64,000 bases of DNA. Origin: Acidimicrobiales bacterium. GTDB taxonomy: Bacteria; Actinomycetota; Acidimicrobiia; Acidimicrobiales; AC-14. Below are positions 4,313 through 37,500 of the stretch, piece after piece. Positions within the stretch are counted from its first letter, which is position 1. Every line of letters begins with the position of its first letter. A program made the position numbers and the translations under genes. A model generated the notes under the pieces. It ran no database searches. It saw nothing but the letters and a program-made list of their open reading frames with translations, and was not told where the DNA came from. The DNA is taken from the NCBI GenBank assembly GCA_025463925.1, contig JAODBK010000055.1, forward strand, positions 1 to 64,000. Direction: 5' to 3'.

Positions 4313-5260
4313 ATGCCGCTCCACCCCAGCCTCCAGCCGCTCGTCGACGCCGCGGCCGCCATGCCGGCATCGCCCGACGGCCTCTCCGTGGACGAGCTCC
4401 GCGCCTTCGCGCACGGCGCCATGGAGCAGATGTTCTCGCGGCTGAGCGAGGCCGGGCCGGAGATGGCCGCGGTCGAGGATCACCGCGTGCCGGTCGAGGG
4501 CGGTGCGATCACCGTACGGATCTACCGGCCGGAAGGCGACGGCCCATTCCCGGCCCACCTCTACCTGCATGGCGGCGGCTTCTGGCTCGGCAGCATCGAC
4601 ATGTTCGACGCGACCTGCCGGTGGGTGGCGAGCCTGGCCGACTGCGTCGTCGCATCGGTGGACTACCGGCTGGCGCCGGAAACGAAGTTCCCGACGCTTC
4701 CGGAGGATTGCTACGGCGCGCTCCTGTGGCTCGTCGACCACGCCGCCGAGTTGCAGGTCGACACCGGCCGGGTGTCCGTCGGTGGTGCCAGCGCCGGCGG
4801 CGACCTCGCCGCGGTCACCGCGCTGATGGCGCGCGATCGCGGGGGCCCGCCGCTCGTGTTCCAGGTCCTCGAGATCCCGGTCACCGACCTCACGATGAGC
4901 CAGCCGTCGATCCAGGAGAACGGCGAGGGCCTGATCCTCACTGAGTCGGCGATCTCGCAGTACATCGGCTACTACCTCGCCGATCCCTCAGACGCGACCA
5001 ACCCGTATGCGTCGCCCCTGCTGGCCGACGACCTGTCGGGCCTGCCGCCGGCGCTGGTGATGACCGCGGAGTACGACCCGCTCCGCGACGAGGGCGAGGC
5101 GTACGGCCGGCGGCTGCAGGCGGCCGGTGTGCCGACGACGATTCGCCGGTGGGCAGGTCAGTTCCACGGCTCGCAGCACATGGCGGCGATCATCCCGGCC
5201 GAGGCCAAGGAGTACCGCGAGATGGTCGCGGCCGCGCTCCGCGAGGCGTACGAGCGCTGA
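4313..5260 (+). CDS. Alpha/beta hydrolase, hormone-sensitive-lipase family esterase
   Basis: A 315-residue carboxylic ester hydrolase. The family signature HGGG starts at H86 (oxyanion hole), the nucleophile is S160 in GASAGG, and the remaining triad members are D255 in EYDPLRDEG and H285 in QFHGS. All catalytic residues are present and length fits the family. The ATG at 4313 lies 11 bp after the AtuA-family stop; the frame is open upstream but that part is the out-of-frame shadow of the previous gene. Probably the last gene of the carboxylase-AtuA run, where it could release an acid from an ester such as a terpenyl or short acyl ester (inference). Confidence 0.93.
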   Translation: MPLHPSLQPLVDAAAAMPASPDGLSVDELRAFAHGAMEQMFSRLSEAGPEMAAVEDHRVPVEGGAITVRIYRPEGDGPFPAHLYLHGGGFWLGSIDMFDATCRWVASLADCVVASVDYRLAPETKFPTLPEDCYGALLWLVDHAAELQVDTGRVSVGGASAGGDLAAVTALMARDRGGPPLVFQVLEIPVTDLTMSQPSIQENGEGLILTESAISQYIGYYLADPSDATNPYASPLLADDLSGLPPALVMTAEYDPLRDEGEAYGRRLQAAGVPTTIRRWAGQFHGSQHMAAIIPAEAKEYREMVAAALREAYER

Positions 5261-5331
5261 GTCCGGCTCACCACCCGGAGCCGATCGATCCCGACCTGGC
5301 TCCGGACGAGACCACCCGCGTCCGGCCGTCG

Positions 5332-5700
5332 GTGCTCGGCGCGATCGCGCTCGGCGGCGCGCTGGGCGCGCCGGCCCGGTACGGCGTCGCGCAGCTCGTC
5401 CACGGCGCGCCCGGACGTTTCCCGTGGGCCACGCTCTGGACGAACCTCAGCGGCAGCTTGGCCCTCGGCATCGTGCTGGTGGTGCTCGTCGAGCGGTTCC
5501 CGCCGGCGCGCCATGCCCGCCCGTTCGTCGCCACGGGGTTCCTCGGCGCGTACACGACGTACTCGACGTTCGCGGTCGACACCGACGTGCTCGTGCAGCA
5601 CGGCCATGTCGCAACCGCAGCGGCCTACGTCGTCGCGTCGATGGTCGGCGGGTTCGTCGCCGTATGGCTCGGCGTGTCGCTCGCTCGGGCGCGCCGATGA
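5332..5700 (+). CDS. crcB: Fluoride ion channel CrcB/FluC, first copy
   Basis: A small membrane channel that exports fluoride. The GTG at 5332 gives 122 residues, the usual length, and the first helix begins at once (GALGAPARYG). Family signatures are FPWATLWTNLSGSLALG and the pore motif YTTYSTF. An upstream extension back to the end of the esterase gene is open but hydrophilic and atypical. The stop overlaps the ATG of a second crcB copy (ATGA). FluC works as an antiparallel dimer; adjacent paralogous pairs are known to form obligate heterodimers, so these two may assemble together. I saw no fluoride riboswitch upstream. Confidence 0.9.
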   Translation: MLGAIALGGALGAPARYGVAQLVHGAPGRFPWATLWTNLSGSLALGIVLVVLVERFPPARHARPFVATGFLGAYTTYSTFAVDTDVLVQHGHVATAAAYVVASMVGGFVAVWLGVSLARARR

Positions 5701-6071
5701 CACCGCTGGCGTGGGTGGCGTTCGTCGGCGCCGGCGCGGTCGGCGCGCCGCTGCGCTATCTCGTGGATACCGCCGTCCGAGCCCGTATGCGCGGCCAGTT
5801 CCCGTGGGGGACGCTGGTGGTCAACGCCACCGGGTCGCTGGTGCTCGGGTTCATCGTGGGGCTGGCGACCTACCACGCGTTTCCGAACGCGCCGAAAGTC
5901 GTGCTGGGGGCCGGCTTCTGCGGCTCGTACACCACGTTCTCGACGTACGCGTTCGAGACGGTGCGCCTGGCCGAGGAGGGCAACGCGCGGCTCGCGATGT
6001 TCAACGCCCTCGGCACCCTCGTCGCCGGCGCCGGCGCGGCCGCGCTCGGGTTGGCGCTGGCCGCCATCTGA
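5697..6071 (+). CDS. crcB: Fluoride ion channel CrcB/FluC, second copy
   Basis: 124 residues with four hydrophobic helices. It carries GAVGAPLRYL near the N-terminus, FPWGTLVVNATGSLVLG in helix 2 and YTTFSTYAFET at the pore helix, matching the first copy at every family motif but clearly diverged from it. The ATG overlaps the preceding stop, so translation of the two is coupled, consistent with a heterodimeric fluoride channel. The next gene starts 46 bp downstream and is unrelated in function. Confidence 0.92.
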   Translation: MTPLAWVAFVGAGAVGAPLRYLVDTAVRARMRGQFPWGTLVVNATGSLVLGFIVGLATYHAFPNAPKVVLGAGFCGSYTTFSTYAFETVRLAEEGNARLAMFNALGTLVAGAGAAALGLALAAI

Positions 6072-6116
6072 TCCGAACCGCGCTCGCGGAGAGCCCGTTC
6101 GCTACGGTCGGGCTGG

Positions 6117-7118
6117 ATGGGCCGCACCGCCGCTGTCATCGTCGCCTTGGCCGTCACCACGATGGTCCTCGCGCCGGGCGCGGGCGCGGCTCGCACGTTC
6201 AGCCCGCCGCTGAGCGGCGTCGACGCCTTCGTCACCAACCTGCCGACGTGTGGGCCGGGCCCGGTCGGAATGCTGTTCGACGGCAGCAGCTTCTTCGTCA
6301 CCGACTACTGCAACGGGACGACCTACCGAATGTCGCCGAAGGGCGGCGACGCCAGCGGAGCGCCGAGCGCGGTCGAGAACGGGCTCACCCACGGGTTGGC
6401 GCTGAGCCACGGCCGGTACTACGGCGCCGGCAAGGGCAACGCCGCCCTGCCGCGTGGGGTGTACGCGTTCGGGCCGGGCACGCTCGAGATCGGCCACAAG
6501 GTGTTCGCGTCAGCGGCCGAGCCGCGCGGCGTCGTCGGTGACCCGAAGACCACGGACCTCTACGTCTCGACGAGCAACGGCCTCTACCGCATCCGCGATC
6601 CCGAGTCGGCCGACCCGCCGTCGAGCAAGGTCGCCGACGGGGAGTTCGACGGACTGGCCTTCACCGCCGATGGCTCGCGGCTCTATGTGACGGACTTCGC
6701 CGGTCAGCGCGTCGTCGGCTTCGACCGCGCCATGAAGAAGGTGTTCGACGTCACCGTGGGCCACGGCGCCGACGGCGTGGCGGTTGCTCGCGACGATGCC
6801 AAGGCCGGTGGCCAGTCGCTGGCGGGGAACGTCTTCGTCAACGCCAACGACGGGTCGGTTCTCCGCATCGACACCCAGCATGGCAACGCGGTCAGCGTCG
6901 TGTCGGCCGGCGGCACGCGCGGTGATTTCGCGGCGGTCGGCCCGGACGGCTGCCTCTACGCGACCCAGTCGGCGACGATCGAGCGATTGCGACCGTGCTT
7001 CTTCGAGCCCACCGTGCACGAGAAGGCCACTGGCCGCGGCTGGCTGTTGTGGGCCGTGCTCGCGGCCGTCATCGTCGGTCTCGGGCTGCTCGGGCTGGGG
7101 TACGCGCGACGCCGATGA
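6117..7118 (+). CDS. Membrane-anchored NHL/SMP-30-like beta-propeller protein
   Basis: 333 residues. The N-terminus is a signal peptide (hydrophobic stretch at residues 5-20, cleavage likely after AGA near 24), followed by repeated beta-propeller blades such as GDPKTTDLYVSTSNGLYRI and GLAFTADGSRLYVTDF, then a C-terminal transmembrane helix (about residues 303-326) ending ARRR. It should therefore sit outside the cell, tethered by its C-terminus. No catalytic residues of a gluconolactonase are evident, so it may bind rather than catalyse. It overlaps putA by 4 bp (ATGA). The functional link to proline oxidation is unknown. Confidence 0.78.
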   Translation: MGRTAAVIVALAVTTMVLAPGAGAARTFSPPLSGVDAFVTNLPTCGPGPVGMLFDGSSFFVTDYCNGTTYRMSPKGGDASGAPSAVENGLTHGLALSHGRYYGAGKGNAALPRGVYAFGPGTLEIGHKVFASAAEPRGVVGDPKTTDLYVSTSNGLYRIRDPESADPPSSKVADGEFDGLAFTADGSRLYVTDFAGQRVVGFDRAMKKVFDVTVGHGADGVAVARDDAKAGGQSLAGNVFVNANDGSVLRIDTQHGNAVSVVSAGGTRGDFAAVGPDGCLYATQSATIERLRPCFFEPTVHEKATGRGWLLWAVLAAVIVGLGLLGLGYARRR

Positions 7119-10105
7119 CGACGCCACCCGACGCCGAGGTCACCGACCTGGCGCGGAAGATCGCGATGCTCGGCGCCGGTGAGAAGGGTCGAGTGCTCCA
7201 GTCGTCGTGGTGGAGCGAACGGATGCTCGAGTTCGCCATGAATCATCCGTCGTTCAAGACCCAGCTGTTCCGCTTCGTCGACGTGTTCCCGGCCATGACC
7301 GACGACACCGACGTCGTCCGGCACCTCGACGAGTACTTCGCCGATGCCGACGTCCCACGGGTGATCGACCTCGGCCTCGACCTGGCCGGCAAGGTGCCGT
7401 TCGGCAAGGCGGTGTCGGCGTCGGTCGCCCGCCGGAACATCGCCCGCATGGCCGAGCAGTTCATCGTCGGCAGCACGCCCGACGAGGCGATCGAGGGACT
7501 CCATCGGCTGTGGCGGAAGGGGAGCGCGTTCACCGTCGATCTCCTCGGTGAGAAGACCGTCACCGAGCCCGAGGCCGATCGCTACGCCGCGAGGGTCGAC
7601 GAGCTGATGACCGCGCTGCTCCGCGCCACCGCGGCATGGGCACCCGATGATCACCTCGAGCGCGACGACCTCGGCCCGTTGCCACGGGTCAACGTCAGCA
7701 TCAAGCCGACCGCGCTGGCGTCGCTCTACGCGCCGTTGACGCGCCACGACGGCTTGGCCCAGGCCAAGAGCCGGCTCCGGCCGATACTTCGCAGGGCGCG
7801 CGACGGCGGTGCCTTCATCCATTTCGACATGGAGCCCTACGACGCCAAGGACCTCACGCTGGAGTTGTTCCGCGAGCTGCTGTCGGAGGACGAATTCGCC
7901 GAGGTCGACGCCGGGATCGTCATCCAGGCCTACCTCAAGGACTCGTTCCGCGATCTCGGCGGCTTGATCGAGTTCTCGGCGGCCCGCCGGCGCCCCATCA
8001 CCGTGCGGTTGGTGAAGGGCGCGTACTGGGACACCGAGACCGTGGTCGCGCGCGCCGAGGGTTGGCCGGTGCCGGTGTACGAGCACAAGGTCGAGACCGA
8101 CGCCAACTACGAGCGGTGCGTCCGGTTGCTGCACGATCGCCACGGCGAGGTGCGAGCCGCGTTCGGCAGTCACAACCTCCGGTCACTGGCGTACGCCGTC
8201 ACCTACGCCCGGTCGAAGAGGATCCCCGACACCGGCTACGAGATCCAGATGCTGTACGGCATGGCCGAGCCGGTGCACGCCGCGATCCGGCGGCTCGGAC
8301 TGCGGCTGCGGGTGTACGCGCCGGTCGGCGAGCTGGTGCCGGGCATGGCGTACCTGGTGCGCCGGCTGCTCGAGAACACGTCGAACGAGAGCTTCGTGCG
8401 TCAGCGCTTCGTCGATGGCAAGGACCTCGATTCGCTCGTCGAGCCGCCGAAGGTCGATCGCATCCCCGAGCCCGAGGAGCCGACGCCGCGGCCGCCGACC
8501 GACCCCGCCGAGCCGGGCCCGTATCACCACGAACCGCTGCGCGAGTGGCGCCGGGCGTCGGCTCGGGCATCGTTCGCGGAAGCGGTCGAGCGCGCCGCGA
8601 CAGTTGTGGACCGCGGGCCGGCCGACATCCCGGCAGTGATCGGGGGCCGGCCGCTGATGACCGCGGAGGTGATCGACTCGCCCGATCCGTCGCGCCCCTC
8701 GGTGATCGTGGCCCGCTCGGCGTCGTGCACCGCGGCCGACGGTGATCGGGCCGTCGCGGCCGCCCGCGCCGCGTGGCCCGGCTGGCGGCGGACGCGGCCG
8801 CGGGAACGCGCCGCGGTGCTCTTCCGCGCCGCTCACTGGATGCGGTCACGGCGCGACGAGCTGGCGGCGCTCGAGGTGTTCGAGGCCGGCAAGCCGTGGC
8901 GGGAGGCCGACGCCGATGTCTGCGAGGCGATCGACTTCTGCGAGTACTACGGCCGCGAGATGATCCGGCTGTCAGCCGGCGCGCCGGTCGAATCGCCGCC
9001 CGGCGAGGCGAACGCGATGCACTACCAGCCGCGCGGGATCGCGGTCGTCATCGCGCCGTGGAACTTTCCGTTGGCCATTCCGACGGGAATGGTGACGGCC
9101 GCGCTCGTGACTGGCAACTGCGTGCTCTTCAAGCCGGCCGAGCAGACGCCGGCGATCGCGTCGAAGCTCGTCGAGGCGCTGGTGGCGGCGGGGCTGCCCG
9201 AGGGTGTGCTGGCGTTCCTCCCGGGGTGGGGCGAGGACGTCGGCGCCCATCTCGTCGCCCATCCCGACATCGCGCTGATCGCGTTCACCGGCTCGAAGGC
9301 GGTCGGGCTGCAGATCATCGAGCAGGCCGCAGTCCACCGGCCCGGCCAGCGGCAGATCAAGCGGGTGATCGCCGAGCTGGGCGGCAAGAACGCGCTCGTG
9401 ATCGACGCCGACGCCGACCTCGACCAGGCAGTGCCGATCACGGTGACGTCGGCGTTCGGGTACTCCGGCCAGAAGTGCTCGGCGGCGTCGCGCCTCGTCG
9501 TGGTCGACGCGGTCGCCGACGAGATGCTCGAGCGCATGATCGGCGCGACCGAGCAGCTTCGCATCGGCCATCCTCGCGAGATGGGTGTCCAGGTCGGCCC
9601 GCTCATCGACGCCGACGCGCTGGCGCGAGTGCGCTCCTATGTCGAGTTGGCGCCGGCCGAGGGTGTGGTCGTGTTGGCGCGCGACGATGTCCCGACCGAG
9701 GGCTACTTCGTCGGGCCGACGATCGTCACCGACGCGCCGGTCAGCTCGCGGTTGGCCACCGAGGAGATCTTCGGCCCCGTCCTCACCGTCTTGTCGGCGC
9801 CCACCTTCGAAGCCGCCATCGATGTCGCCAACGCCACCGACTACGCGCTGACCGCCGGTGCCGTCTCCCGCTCGCCGGCCCACATCCACCTCGCCGCCGA
9901 GGAACTGCGCGCCGGCAACGTCTACATCAACCGCAACATCACGGGCGCCGTCGTCGGTCGCCACCCGTTCGGTGGCTACGGCATGTCGGGCGTCGGATCG
10001 AAGGCCGGCGGGCCCGACTACCTCCTCCATTTTCTCGACCCGCGGGCCATCAGCGAGAACACCCTGCGCCAGGGCTTCGCCCCCGATGGCCAGGAGTCCG
10101 GGTAG
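7115..10105 (+). CDS. putA: Bifunctional proline dehydrogenase / L-glutamate gamma-semialdehyde dehydrogenase
   Basis: A 996-residue fused enzyme that oxidises proline to glutamate: an FAD-dependent proline dehydrogenase barrel at about residues 60-430 (VNVSIKPTAL, IHFDMEPYDAKDLTLEL, FGSHNLRSL), then an NAD-dependent aldehyde dehydrogenase at about 535-985. The second half has the cofactor motif IAPWNFPLAIP, the ELGGKN glutamate motif and catalytic C788 in SGQKCSAASR. There is no N-terminal DNA-binding domain, so it is not the self-regulating enterobacterial form. The start at 7115 overlaps the previous stop; the open frame before it is the shadow of the propeller gene. Confidence 0.96.
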   Translation: MTTPPDAEVTDLARKIAMLGAGEKGRVLQSSWWSERMLEFAMNHPSFKTQLFRFVDVFPAMTDDTDVVRHLDEYFADADVPRVIDLGLDLAGKVPFGKAVSASVARRNIARMAEQFIVGSTPDEAIEGLHRLWRKGSAFTVDLLGEKTVTEPEADRYAARVDELMTALLRATAAWAPDDHLERDDLGPLPRVNVSIKPTALASLYAPLTRHDGLAQAKSRLRPILRRARDGGAFIHFDMEPYDAKDLTLELFRELLSEDEFAEVDAGIVIQAYLKDSFRDLGGLIEFSAARRRPITVRLVKGAYWDTETVVARAEGWPVPVYEHKVETDANYERCVRLLHDRHGEVRAAFGSHNLRSLAYAVTYARSKRIPDTGYEIQMLYGMAEPVHAAIRRLGLRLRVYAPVGELVPGMAYLVRRLLENTSNESFVRQRFVDGKDLDSLVEPPKVDRIPEPEEPTPRPPTDPAEPGPYHHEPLREWRRASARASFAEAVERAATVVDRGPADIPAVIGGRPLMTAEVIDSPDPSRPSVIVARSASCTAADGDRAVAAARAAWPGWRRTRPRERAAVLFRAAHWMRSRRDELAALEVFEAGKPWREADADVCEAIDFCEYYGREMIRLSAGAPVESPPGEANAMHYQPRGIAVVIAPWNFPLAIPTGMVTAALVTGNCVLFKPAEQTPAIASKLVEALVAAGLPEGVLAFLPGWGEDVGAHLVAHPDIALIAFTGSKAVGLQIIEQAAVHRPGQRQIKRVIAELGGKNALVIDADADLDQAVPITVTSAFGYSGQKCSAASRLVVVDAVADEMLERMIGATEQLRIGHPREMGVQVGPLIDADALARVRSYVELAPAEGVVVLARDDVPTEGYFVGPTIVTDAPVSSRLATEEIFGPVLTVLSAPTFEAAIDVANATDYALTAGAVSRSPAHIHLAAEELRAGNVYINRNITGAVVGRHPFGGYGMSGVGSKAGGPDYLLHFLDPRAISENTLRQGFAPDGQESG

Positions 10106-35030: not shown

Positions 35031-36824
35031 TCACGCGAGTTGGAGCACGTGCACGGCCTGCTGGAGGGTGTTGACTCCCCGCACCTGCAGCCGGCGGTCC
35101 CTGACCGAAGACACCTCGTCGGAGGCGACGAGGAAGACCGTGGCCCCGGCGCGCCGCGCCGCGATCGCCTTCTCGTGAACACCGCCCACCGGGCCGACTG
35201 ACCCGTCCGCTTCGATCGTCCCCGTGGCGGCGACGGCGCGGCCCCGCGCGTCGTCCGAGGGGTCGAGCATGTCGGTGATCGCCAGTGCGTACGCCAGCCC
35301 GGCCGAGGGGCCGCCCAGGCCGGAGCGGGCCTGAAGCGTGATGCTGAACGGGAGCACCACGCGCAGGTCGCGCGTGGCGACCACCACACCGATGCCAGTG
35401 CCGCCTGAGACCTCTGGGAGGCGCACTGTGGTCGTCGTCACTGGCAACGTCCGCCCTCTTCGCTCCACGGTCAGGGTCAGGTGCCGTCCGGCCGGGAGTC
35501 CGCCGACGACGTCGTGGAGGTCGGCGACGGTCCTGATGGGTTGTCCGTCCACGGCGGTGATGGTGTCGCCGGCTTTGAGGACTGAGGCTGCCGGCGACGA
35601 CCGGGTGACCCCGATGACTTGGGCACCGCGGCCGACGAGTGTGGCGTGGTAGCCGGCAGCAGTCGCGGCCGCGGCCGCCGCCGTCTGCTGGCTGTCGACG
35701 TAGAGCTGCCGCTCGAAACGGGCGATGGCACCGGGTGAGATGCCCTTGGGCGCGACGTCGCCGGCAGAGAGCACCTCGCGGTCGCTCCGTGCCATTGCCA
35801 GGAGCACCCCGAGGGCGCTCGGCTGACTCAACCGCACCGAGGTGAGCAGGTAGCGGCCGGTGAGCGGCTGAACGGGCACGCCGGTGATCGTGATGTCACC
35901 TCGAATGTCGAAGGATTCGCCCGGCGAGACCACCACGTACGGCGGGTGGTACAGCGCCGCGATCGCCACGGCGAAGGTGAGTGCGACCACCAACCAGACG
36001 CCGAGCCCGCCGGCGCGGCGTCGGGCGGACGGCAATTCGGCGGGAAGCACTCCTTCCGGGATGCGGAGCGCGTCGGGGGTCGGGAGGACGCCGAGCGCGA
36101 TCTCGAGTCGGGCCGCGATTGCCTCCGCATCAGCGGCGCGGATCAGGTACCAGCCGAGCACGACGAACCAGATCCCGCCGATGCCCGCGCCGGTCACGGC
36201 GCTGAGCAGGCCGAGACCGACGAGCAAGGAGCCGAAGGCGCGCCCGGCACCCGCGGCGGACAGCGTCGCTGCGGCCCGGTCGCCGGAGCGCCGCCAGAGG
36301 ACCGCGTGCAGGATCCGCCCGCCGTCCAGCGGCAGCGCCGGCACCAGGTTGAACGCGGCGAGGATCCCGTTGACGCGGGCCAGGTAGTCCGTCACGCCGC
36401 GCACGGCGACTGGCGCTCCGGTCGCGCGGGCCAGGGCGGTGAGTCCGAGGAACACGAGGGCGAGCACCGCGGAGGCGATCGGCCCGGCGGCCACCACGCG
36501 GAGCTCGGCCCTCGGGCTCGGCAGCTCGCCCTCGGTCTTGGACACGCCTCCGAAGAGCCAGAGCGTGATCTCCTGAACCCGGACGCCCTCGCGCAGCGCC
36601 CGCAGTGTGTGGCTCAGCTCGTGGGCCAGGATCGAGCCGAAGAACAGGACGGTGGCGAGCGCGCCCATGGCGAGGTACGTCGATCCCGACTGGCCGGGGT
36701 AGGTGGCCGGGAACAGCGCGCCCGCCAATGTCCAGAAGAAGAACAGGAAGATGAAGAGCCACGTCCAGTTGATCCCGACCGGGATGCCCTTGACGCGGAA
36801 GAGGCGAATGTTGCTGTTCAACAC
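35031..36824 (-). CDS. Fusion of M50 site-2-type protease and PDZ-Lon (S16) protease
   Basis: 597 residues from GTG 36824. Residues 1-300 are an M50 intramembrane metalloprotease: HELSH with H68, E69 and H72, and D167 in LVPALPLDGGRIL, both within hydrophobic helices. A further transmembrane segment near 320-340 (LGVWLVVALTFAVAIAALYH) begins a YlbL-like module with a PDZ domain at about 435-505 that includes VTRSSPAASVLKAGDTITAV. The C-terminal Lon protease domain has the Ser-Lys dyad S507 (GGPSAG) and K552 (HEKAIA). All catalytic residues are present. M50 cuts within membranes and YlbL-Lon cuts outside, so the fusion could process one substrate in two steps (inference). Confidence 0.92.
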   Translation of the reverse strand: MLNSNIRLFRVKGIPVGINWTWLFIFLFFFWTLAGALFPATYPGQSGSTYLAMGALATVLFFGSILAHELSHTLRALREGVRVQEITLWLFGGVSKTEGELPSPRAELRVVAAGPIASAVLALVFLGLTALARATGAPVAVRGVTDYLARVNGILAAFNLVPALPLDGGRILHAVLWRRSGDRAAATLSAAGAGRAFGSLLVGLGLLSAVTGAGIGGIWFVVLGWYLIRAADAEAIAARLEIALGVLPTPDALRIPEGVLPAELPSARRRAGGLGVWLVVALTFAVAIAALYHPPYVVVSPGESFDIRGDITITGVPVQPLTGRYLLTSVRLSQPSALGVLLAMARSDREVLSAGDVAPKGISPGAIARFERQLYVDSQQTAAAAAATAAGYHATLVGRGAQVIGVTRSSPAASVLKAGDTITAVDGQPIRTVADLHDVVGGLPAGRHLTLTVERRGRTLPVTTTTVRLPEVSGGTGIGVVVATRDLRVVLPFSITLQARSGLGGPSAGLAYALAITDMLDPSDDARGRAVAATGTIEADGSVGPVGGVHEKAIAARRAGATVFLVASDEVSSVRDRRLQVRGVNTLQQAVHVLQLA

Positions 36825-36825
36825 G

Positions 36826-37500
36826 TCAGCCGGGCTCGTCGACGCGGCCCGGAGACAGGTGGCGGACGAACCAGTCTCGAGCGAGGCGGGCGACCGGCTC
36901 CAGGGCGCCGGGCTCCTCGAAGATGTGGGTCGCGCCGGGAACGATCTCGAGCCGCGACTCGCCCGCGAGTTGCTGCATGGCCTGACGGTTGAGGTCGATG
37001 ACGATCTCGTCACGCCCCCCGACGATGAGCAGCGTCGGTTGGCGCACCCTGCGGAGCTGGTCGCCGGCGAGGTCCGCACGCCCGCCACGGGACACGACCG
37101 CCCGAACCGAATCCGGTCGTTCCGCGGCGGCGACCAGTGCGGCCGCGGCCCCAGTGCTGGCGCCGAACAGGCCGATCGGGAGGCCGGCGAGGGGCTCGTG
37201 TTCGCCCACCCAGTCGGTCACCGCGATGACCCGCGTCGCGAGAAGGTCGATGTCGAAACGGAGTCGGGCGGTGCGAGCGTCGAACTGCTCCTCCTGCAAC
37301 GTGAGCAGGTCGGCCAGGACGGTGGCGAGTCCGGCGCGTTGCAGTTCGCCGGCGACGTAGCGGTTGCGGGGGCTGTGACGGCTGCTGCCGCTTCCGTGTG
37401 CGAACACGACCACCCCCCGGGCGGAGTCCGGGACGGTGACGTCGGCCGCGACCTCGACCCCGGCGGCCGGGATGTCGAGGGTGCTGGGCATCTGGGTCAT
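36826..37500 (-). CDS. Alpha/beta hydrolase (dienelactone-hydrolase-like)
   Basis: 224 residues. GVVVFAHGSGSSRHSPRNRY forms the oxyanion loop, the nucleophile serine is in GLFGASTGAAAALVAA, the acid is in LLIVGGRDEIV and the histidine is in GATHIFEEPG. This is the family often fused to or found with phosphoribosyltransferases and stress genes in actinobacteria. Substrate unknown. Only 1 bp separates its stop from the GTG of the M50-Lon fusion, so the two are one transcription unit. Confidence 0.9.
   Translation of the reverse strand: MTQMPSTLDIPAAGVEVAADVTVPDSARGVVVFAHGSGSSRHSPRNRYVAGELQRAGLATVLADLLTLQEEQFDARTARLRFDIDLLATRVIAVTDWVGEHEPLAGLPIGLFGASTGAAAALVAAAERPDSVRAVVSRGGRADLAGDQLRRVRQPTLLIVGGRDEIVIDLNRQAMQQLAGESRLEIVPGATHIFEEPGALEPVARLARDWFVRHLSPGRVDEPG

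Follow-up and report, generated by a model that had tools for sequence, protein, structure and literature searches.

An open reading frame on the minus strand of the 64,000-nucleotide stretch analysed here, referred to as the window, raises the question of whether two membrane proteases that are usually separate can be one protein, and whether such a union reflects a functional partnership. A sequence-only reading of the window had described this frame as an M50 intramembrane protease fused to a PDZ-Lon protease and had suggested that the two act together. We examined the integrity of the frame, the conservation of the fusion, its evolutionary origin and the mechanisms that it could serve.

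A continuous frame with two proteolytic sites

The fused M50B site-2 protease/TM-PDZ-S16 protease gene lies at 35031..36824 (-) and encodes 597 aa from a GTG start that aligns with the start residue of its homologues. The frame from 36824 to 35031 on the minus strand is uninterrupted over its 597 residues, with neither a stop nor a frame break, and it is continuous at about residue 310, the point at which a break had been named beforehand as an argument against the fusion. By sequence, both active sites are preserved in this single 597-residue chain, and the frame is predicted to encode a complete M50B site-2 protease joined to a YlbL/SepM-type TM-PDZ-S16 unit. The fused chain described earlier is borne out by the continuous frame, by the Pfam domains and by 19 other fused proteins, and the residues assigned to it (H68, E69, H72, D167, S507 and K552) are all correct. 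That the product would function as a single-chain, two-site membrane protease is a claim to which we give even chances.

The M50B intramembrane metalloprotease half (residues 1-235, 36120..36824, minus strand) contains six hydrophobic segments and the residues H68, E69, H72, N159 and D167, and its Pfam Peptidase_M50 match (4.6e-21) is above the curated cut-off. HELSH occupies residues 68-72, while N159 and D167 lie within NLVPALPLDGGR, so that the second M50B motif with its N and D (N..P....DGG) is present alongside HExxH. The half matches the M. jannaschii structure mjS2P 3b4r with phmmer (5e-20). The AlphaFold model of this half is confident, with pLDDT above 85 in most blocks, and Foldseek aligned it to 3b4r_A (E 6e-12, TM-score 0.81 by target length) and also to SpoIVFB 8vjl, which supports a predicted S2P membrane fold. 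The hydropathy profile comprises this S2P core plus one further strong segment at residues 273-291.

Between the halves lies a short linker (residues 236-271, 36012..36119, minus strand), at the position of the CBS pair found in every other fused relative. The seventh hydrophobic segment (residues 273-291, 35952..36008, minus strand; hydropathy peak 2.42) starts the YlbL-type unit and appears in the AlphaFold model as a helix at 274-291, with low confidence. It is followed by a PDZ domain (residues 398-465, 35430..35633, minus strand; Pfam PDZ_2 6.9e-12, above the curated cut-off), which resembles the YlbL PDZ 2kjp by sequence, and by an S16 (Lon-type) protease domain (residues 505-582, 35079..35312, minus strand; Pfam Lon_C 3.2e-10, above the curated cut-off), in which S507 sits in GGPSAG and K552 follows 45 residues further on. 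Pfam gave no AAA hit in the chain at E up to 1; the AAA+ ATPase module that defines ATP-dependent Lon is absent from the chain, and the TM-PDZ-S16 order, the Ser-Lys dyad and the lack of AAA+ correspond to the YlbL/SepM layout. The NCBIfam SepM_fam_S16 match (276-574, 1.3e-40) scores 139.5 bits, below the curated cut-off of 200 bits. The PDZ-S16 half of the full-chain AlphaFold model is poor because only two sequences covered it. From hydropathy and homology, we infer that the chain starts in the cytoplasm, where the CBS linker also lies, and that PDZ-S16 is on the outer side of the membrane, since an M50 part with six TM segments would end in the cytosol, which would place the CBS pair in the cytoplasm and let TM7 take PDZ-S16 across the membrane.

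Fused relatives across Actinomycetota

Full-length fused relatives came to light in G008, G016 and the Actinomycetota MAG KatS3mg013 when 60 related genomes were searched and named genomes were scanned for the pattern; one more, in G191, came from a draw at the order level. These four proteins align with the window protein at 48-52% identity as one protein family; they are 704-711 aa long, with Pfam CBS-domain matches between the M50 and TM-PDZ-S16 parts. A profile built from the window protein and these four relatives was then applied to 396 Actinomycetota genomes. Fused proteins were found in 14 of the 396 phylum-draw genomes outside the window's class, 13 of them complete and one truncated where its contig stops; G815 and G893 each have two copies. 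The class of G815 is comparatively rich, with a fused protein in 10 of 24 genomes and two copies in two of these. In the window's order the fused protein is rare (4/397 genomes), a draw of 395 genomes from the class yielded no additional one, and in the window's family it occurs in two of ten genomes, all ten of which have a separate YlbL. The counts across order, class and phylum therefore describe a patchy distribution, to be explained by loss or transfer; outside Actinomycetota, the coverage consists of the pattern scan of named genomes. The M50-PDZ-S16 architecture that the sequence-only reading had proposed to look for is thus recovered in the window's order and elsewhere in Actinomycetota. 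Relatives carry the fusion, as opposed to keeping the two domains separate throughout, and the phylum search rejects a fusion private to this genome in favour of a conserved Actinomycetota family.

Constraint was assessed in 20 fused proteins from Actinomycetota, namely the window protein and 19 others. All 19 fused proteins that include the M50 region keep H68, E69, H72, N159 and D167 unchanged, S507 and K552 are invariant in 20/20, and both proteolytic sites are thus under selection in the fused family. The interval between window residues 245 and 272 behaves differently: it measures 27 aa in the window protein vs 133-147 aa in all other fused relatives, and the CBS pair kept between the halves in 19/19 of these is absent from the window protein. 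The shortened interval indicates that the window protein derives from an M50-CBS-CBS-TM-PDZ-S16 protein by loss of the CBS pair.

The missing CBS pair, together with the division of the genome assembly into 119 contigs, might also be taken as signs of a chance joining or an assembly chimera. Such an origin is ruled out for the fusion by the 19 other fused proteins, which come from independent genomes; for the window itself, the single M50 clade described below, the continuous frame and the intact active sites also speak against it, and we regard it as extremely improbable.

An overlapping gene pair with the same domains

One genome with a fused copy, G835, also contains an M50-CBS gene that terminates in the ATGA that starts a YlbL-type gene. 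Using this YlbL as the phylum query, we inspected 30 saved loci: 18 have an M50-CBS gene immediately upstream on the same strand, five are fused and seven are neither. Start and stop overlap by 4 bases in 11 of the 18 pairs (ATGA/GTGA) and by 1 base in three more. GGPSA and the lysine are kept in all 18 operon-linked pairs, DGGR is present in all of the M50 partners, and HExxH in 17/18. The M50 partner without HExxH, in operon L209 (G771:C1), has a very long branch and is possibly inactive. Other Actinomycetota with the M50-CBS + YlbL gene pair would make the same machine from two separate chains.

The surroundings of these operons vary with lineage. Those of f122 and f129 lie upstream of dnaX-ybaB-recR, whereas operons L213-L216 and L219 (f100, f148) are near a GATase gene and an AMP-ligase; around L215 we found crgA, a polyprenyl synthetase and a sortase (Pfam-confirmed). 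The dnaX-ybaB-recR and crgA surroundings give only a weak hint of a role in dividing cells or in recovery from DNA damage, which is the known context of YlbL in Bacillus subtilis.

Origin of the linkage

In the PDZ-S16 tree, the fused and operon proteins, with a few others, stand apart from classical YlbL (100/99; 100 in a second tree). The fused proteins and two cNMP-PDZ-S16 proteins form one clade (99), the operon proteins and four solo proteins form another (97), and the YlbL halves of the fused and operon proteins are sister groups. The M50 tree places the fused halves in one clade (97/88) and the operon halves in another (100/97), with solo M50-CBS proteins between them. These are midpoint-rooted, single-gene trees; a single clade for fused and operon M50 halves was rejected (AU p = 0.0099, for a group picked after earlier trees), and for the M50 half the same test rejects a derivation of the fusion from the present-day operon. 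Since the fused and operon M50 halves belong to different lineages, the linkage has more than one origin or one partner has been swapped; the simplest reading would be that the fusion arose once, and that the same two families were linked independently as an operon or the M50 partner was exchanged. Under either origin, linking the two proteases has been favoured repeatedly.

Two YlbL proteins had seemed to be solo members of the fused clade (L017 and L129), and this was rejected because they carry an N-terminal cyclic-nucleotide-binding-like region. L129 (G034:C143:1664-2620) and L017/L182 (G046:C91:35788-36720) are YlbL-type proteases of 569 and 611 aa that keep Ser and Lys, and their N-terminal regions before TM-PDZ-S16 are mutually homologous (Pfam cNMP_binding 5.9e-12 in L017/L182). 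In such cNMP-PDZ-S16 proteins, cyclic nucleotides would appear to control an extracytoplasmic protease. A further locus, L176 (G668:C142), has a cNMP-region-like frame (5206-6252) just upstream of an unfused YlbL gene (6598-7713) on the same strand, a gene pair that looks like an unfused version of these proteins.

Genomic neighbourhoods

In the window, an alpha/beta hydrolase (DLH/S33-like, Pfam) gene at 36826..37500 (-) ends 1 nt before the fused gene and, given this gap and the shared strand, is probably co-transcribed with it. Relatives of this hydrolase (51-60% identity) adjoin solo M50-CBS genes in L084, L096 and L102, within longer frames. The window neighbours typed are the alpha/beta hydrolase, RibD_C, a histidine kinase, ArsR, AHSA1, Pyr_redox and an aldo/keto reductase; there is no sigma or anti-sigma gene among them, in agreement with the earlier reading. 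Beside the fused genes in general, we recognised neither a sigma/anti-sigma pair nor any other recurrent gene for a substrate, and no gene neighbourhood was conserved beyond close relatives. In three genomes (G893, G815 and G757; loci L145, L147 and L154), one fused paralogue belongs to a conserved gene cluster that also encodes a CBS-domain protein, a Ser/Thr kinase and a lipoprotein-like product; the same genomes contain, in addition, either a separate YlbL or another fused copy.

Proposed mechanism and competing explanations

The occurrence of the pairing across the phylum, as a fused gene or as overlapping genes, suggests that the two proteases probably act as one machine, and it provides strong circumstantial support for a group III site-2 protease and an extracytoplasmic PDZ-serine protease working as a pair. 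In the mechanism that we propose, PDZ-S16 would recognise a membrane-anchored protein and cut or trim its outer domain (the site-1 role). M50, tethered next to it, would then take the site-2 role and cleave the TM stub left behind within the membrane, which would either set free a cytoplasmic fragment or dispose of the remnant. In the relatives, the CBS pair would be a probable cytoplasmic gate answering a ligand or partner; the window protein, having lost this gate, may be constitutive or otherwise controlled. It is plausible that one substrate would be cut in tandem, first outside and then within the bilayer, and the outer cut fits B. subtilis YlbL, which uses S234 to act on a membrane protein that has an extracellular domain, YneA (PMC6051672). 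Several points count against the proposal: no recurrent substrate gene was recognised beside the fused genes, YlbL without its TM segment had no activity in vitro (PMC6051672), and SpoIVFB, a characterised relative that bears CBS, needs no site-1 cut to work (PMC10202637). The tether might instead help assembly or localisation, as opposed to sequential cutting. In its general form, the proposal is that Actinomycetota CBS-type (group III) site-2 proteases have a dedicated YlbL-type PDZ-S16 site-1 protease, fused in one lineage and, in another, encoded by a gene that overlaps theirs, and that the extracytoplasmic cut is controlled from the cytoplasm by CBS or, in side branches, by cyclic nucleotides; we advance this tentatively, as a possibility that falls short of being probable.

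The same architecture could instead serve general membrane quality control, with both sites degrading many damaged or mislocalised single-pass proteins at a single location and no signalling role. The varied neighbourhoods of the fused genes, in which no linked regulator was recognised, would suit this explanation, as would the housekeeping genes, for example dnaX-ybaB-recR or crgA, that adjoin operon copies and the clearance of a membrane inhibitor by YlbL in B. subtilis (PMC6051672). The CBS pair in all other fused members and the cNMP-PDZ-S16 proteins, however, suggest specific cytoplasmic control, and we consider pure quality control somewhat unlikely. It is also conceivable that PDZ-S16 is the switch of M50 and degrades an M50 inhibitor, in the way that SpoIVFB is freed when SpoIVB and CtpB cleave SpoIVFA/BofA. 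SpoIVFB is a CBS-type S2P under such control, its substrate needs no preparatory cut, and SpoIVB is, like the PDZ-S16 part, a PDZ-serine protease. An activator in the same chain as M50 would nevertheless be hard to regulate from outside, and next to the fused genes we recognised no gene for a BofA/SpoIVFA-like inhibitor, in a search that would miss weak homologues; we judge this explanation unlikely. The proposed pairing of an outer and an intramembrane cut remains our preferred reading. The sequence-only reading anticipated the fusion, the active sites and joint action, all now supported by the 19 other fused proteins and the 18 two-gene operons; from the sequence alone it could not reveal the conserved Actinomycetota family or the CBS pair of the relatives.

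Relation to known proteases

The M50 half shares HExxH, N-x(2)-P-x(4)-DGGR and six TM segments with group III S2Ps (SpoIVFB, M. jannaschii S2P 3b4r and the Rip3-type M50-CBS proteins), and 3b4r and 8vjl are its closest solved structures. Group III S2Ps are described as bearing CBS and no PDZ, which is assigned to group I (review, PMC10202637). Compared with group III, the fused proteins add the TM-PDZ-S16 unit, with the PDZ of the window protein at 398-465, and the window protein departs further in having no C-terminal CBS. It does not fall into group I (RseP/Rip1 type) either: there, PDZ lies between TM segments of the M50 core, whereas the window PDZ stands behind the whole core and TM7, and the RseP model matches the PDZ part alone (405-479). 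With YlbL/SepM, the window unit shares one TM, PDZ, the S16 Ser-Lys dyad, the absence of AAA+ and the dyad spacing, which is 45 residues for S507-K552 as for YlbL S234-K279 (YlbL residues: PMC6051672). It differs in its position behind M50, in its membership, with the operon-linked proteins, of a separate YlbL clade, and in its SepM score below the cut-off.

The DegS-RseP and SpoIVB/CtpB-SpoIVFB cascades likewise combine a PDZ-serine protease outside with M50 inside the membrane. In DegS-RseP, the PDZ-serine protease prepares the substrate and the RseP PDZ excludes uncut ones (PMC10202637). These cascades consist of separate proteins with S1, S41 or S55 chemistry, whereas the fused or overlapping pair described here uses S16. 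A PDZ survey treats PDZ-Lon and RseP as separate families, and a serine-protease survey gives the YlbL architecture as PDZ-Lon_C alone. We found no literature on the fusion, the operon or YlbL joined with a site-2 protease, although subscription papers and preprints were outside our coverage and absence is not proved.

Group III S2Ps such as the Rip3 type are widespread, and little is known of the selection and preparation of their substrates. The recurrent fusion and operon name a candidate partner for them and offer a compact system in which two point mutations are enough to test both cuts. If the proposal is true, the fused protein would be a self-contained regulated-intramembrane-proteolysis enzyme.
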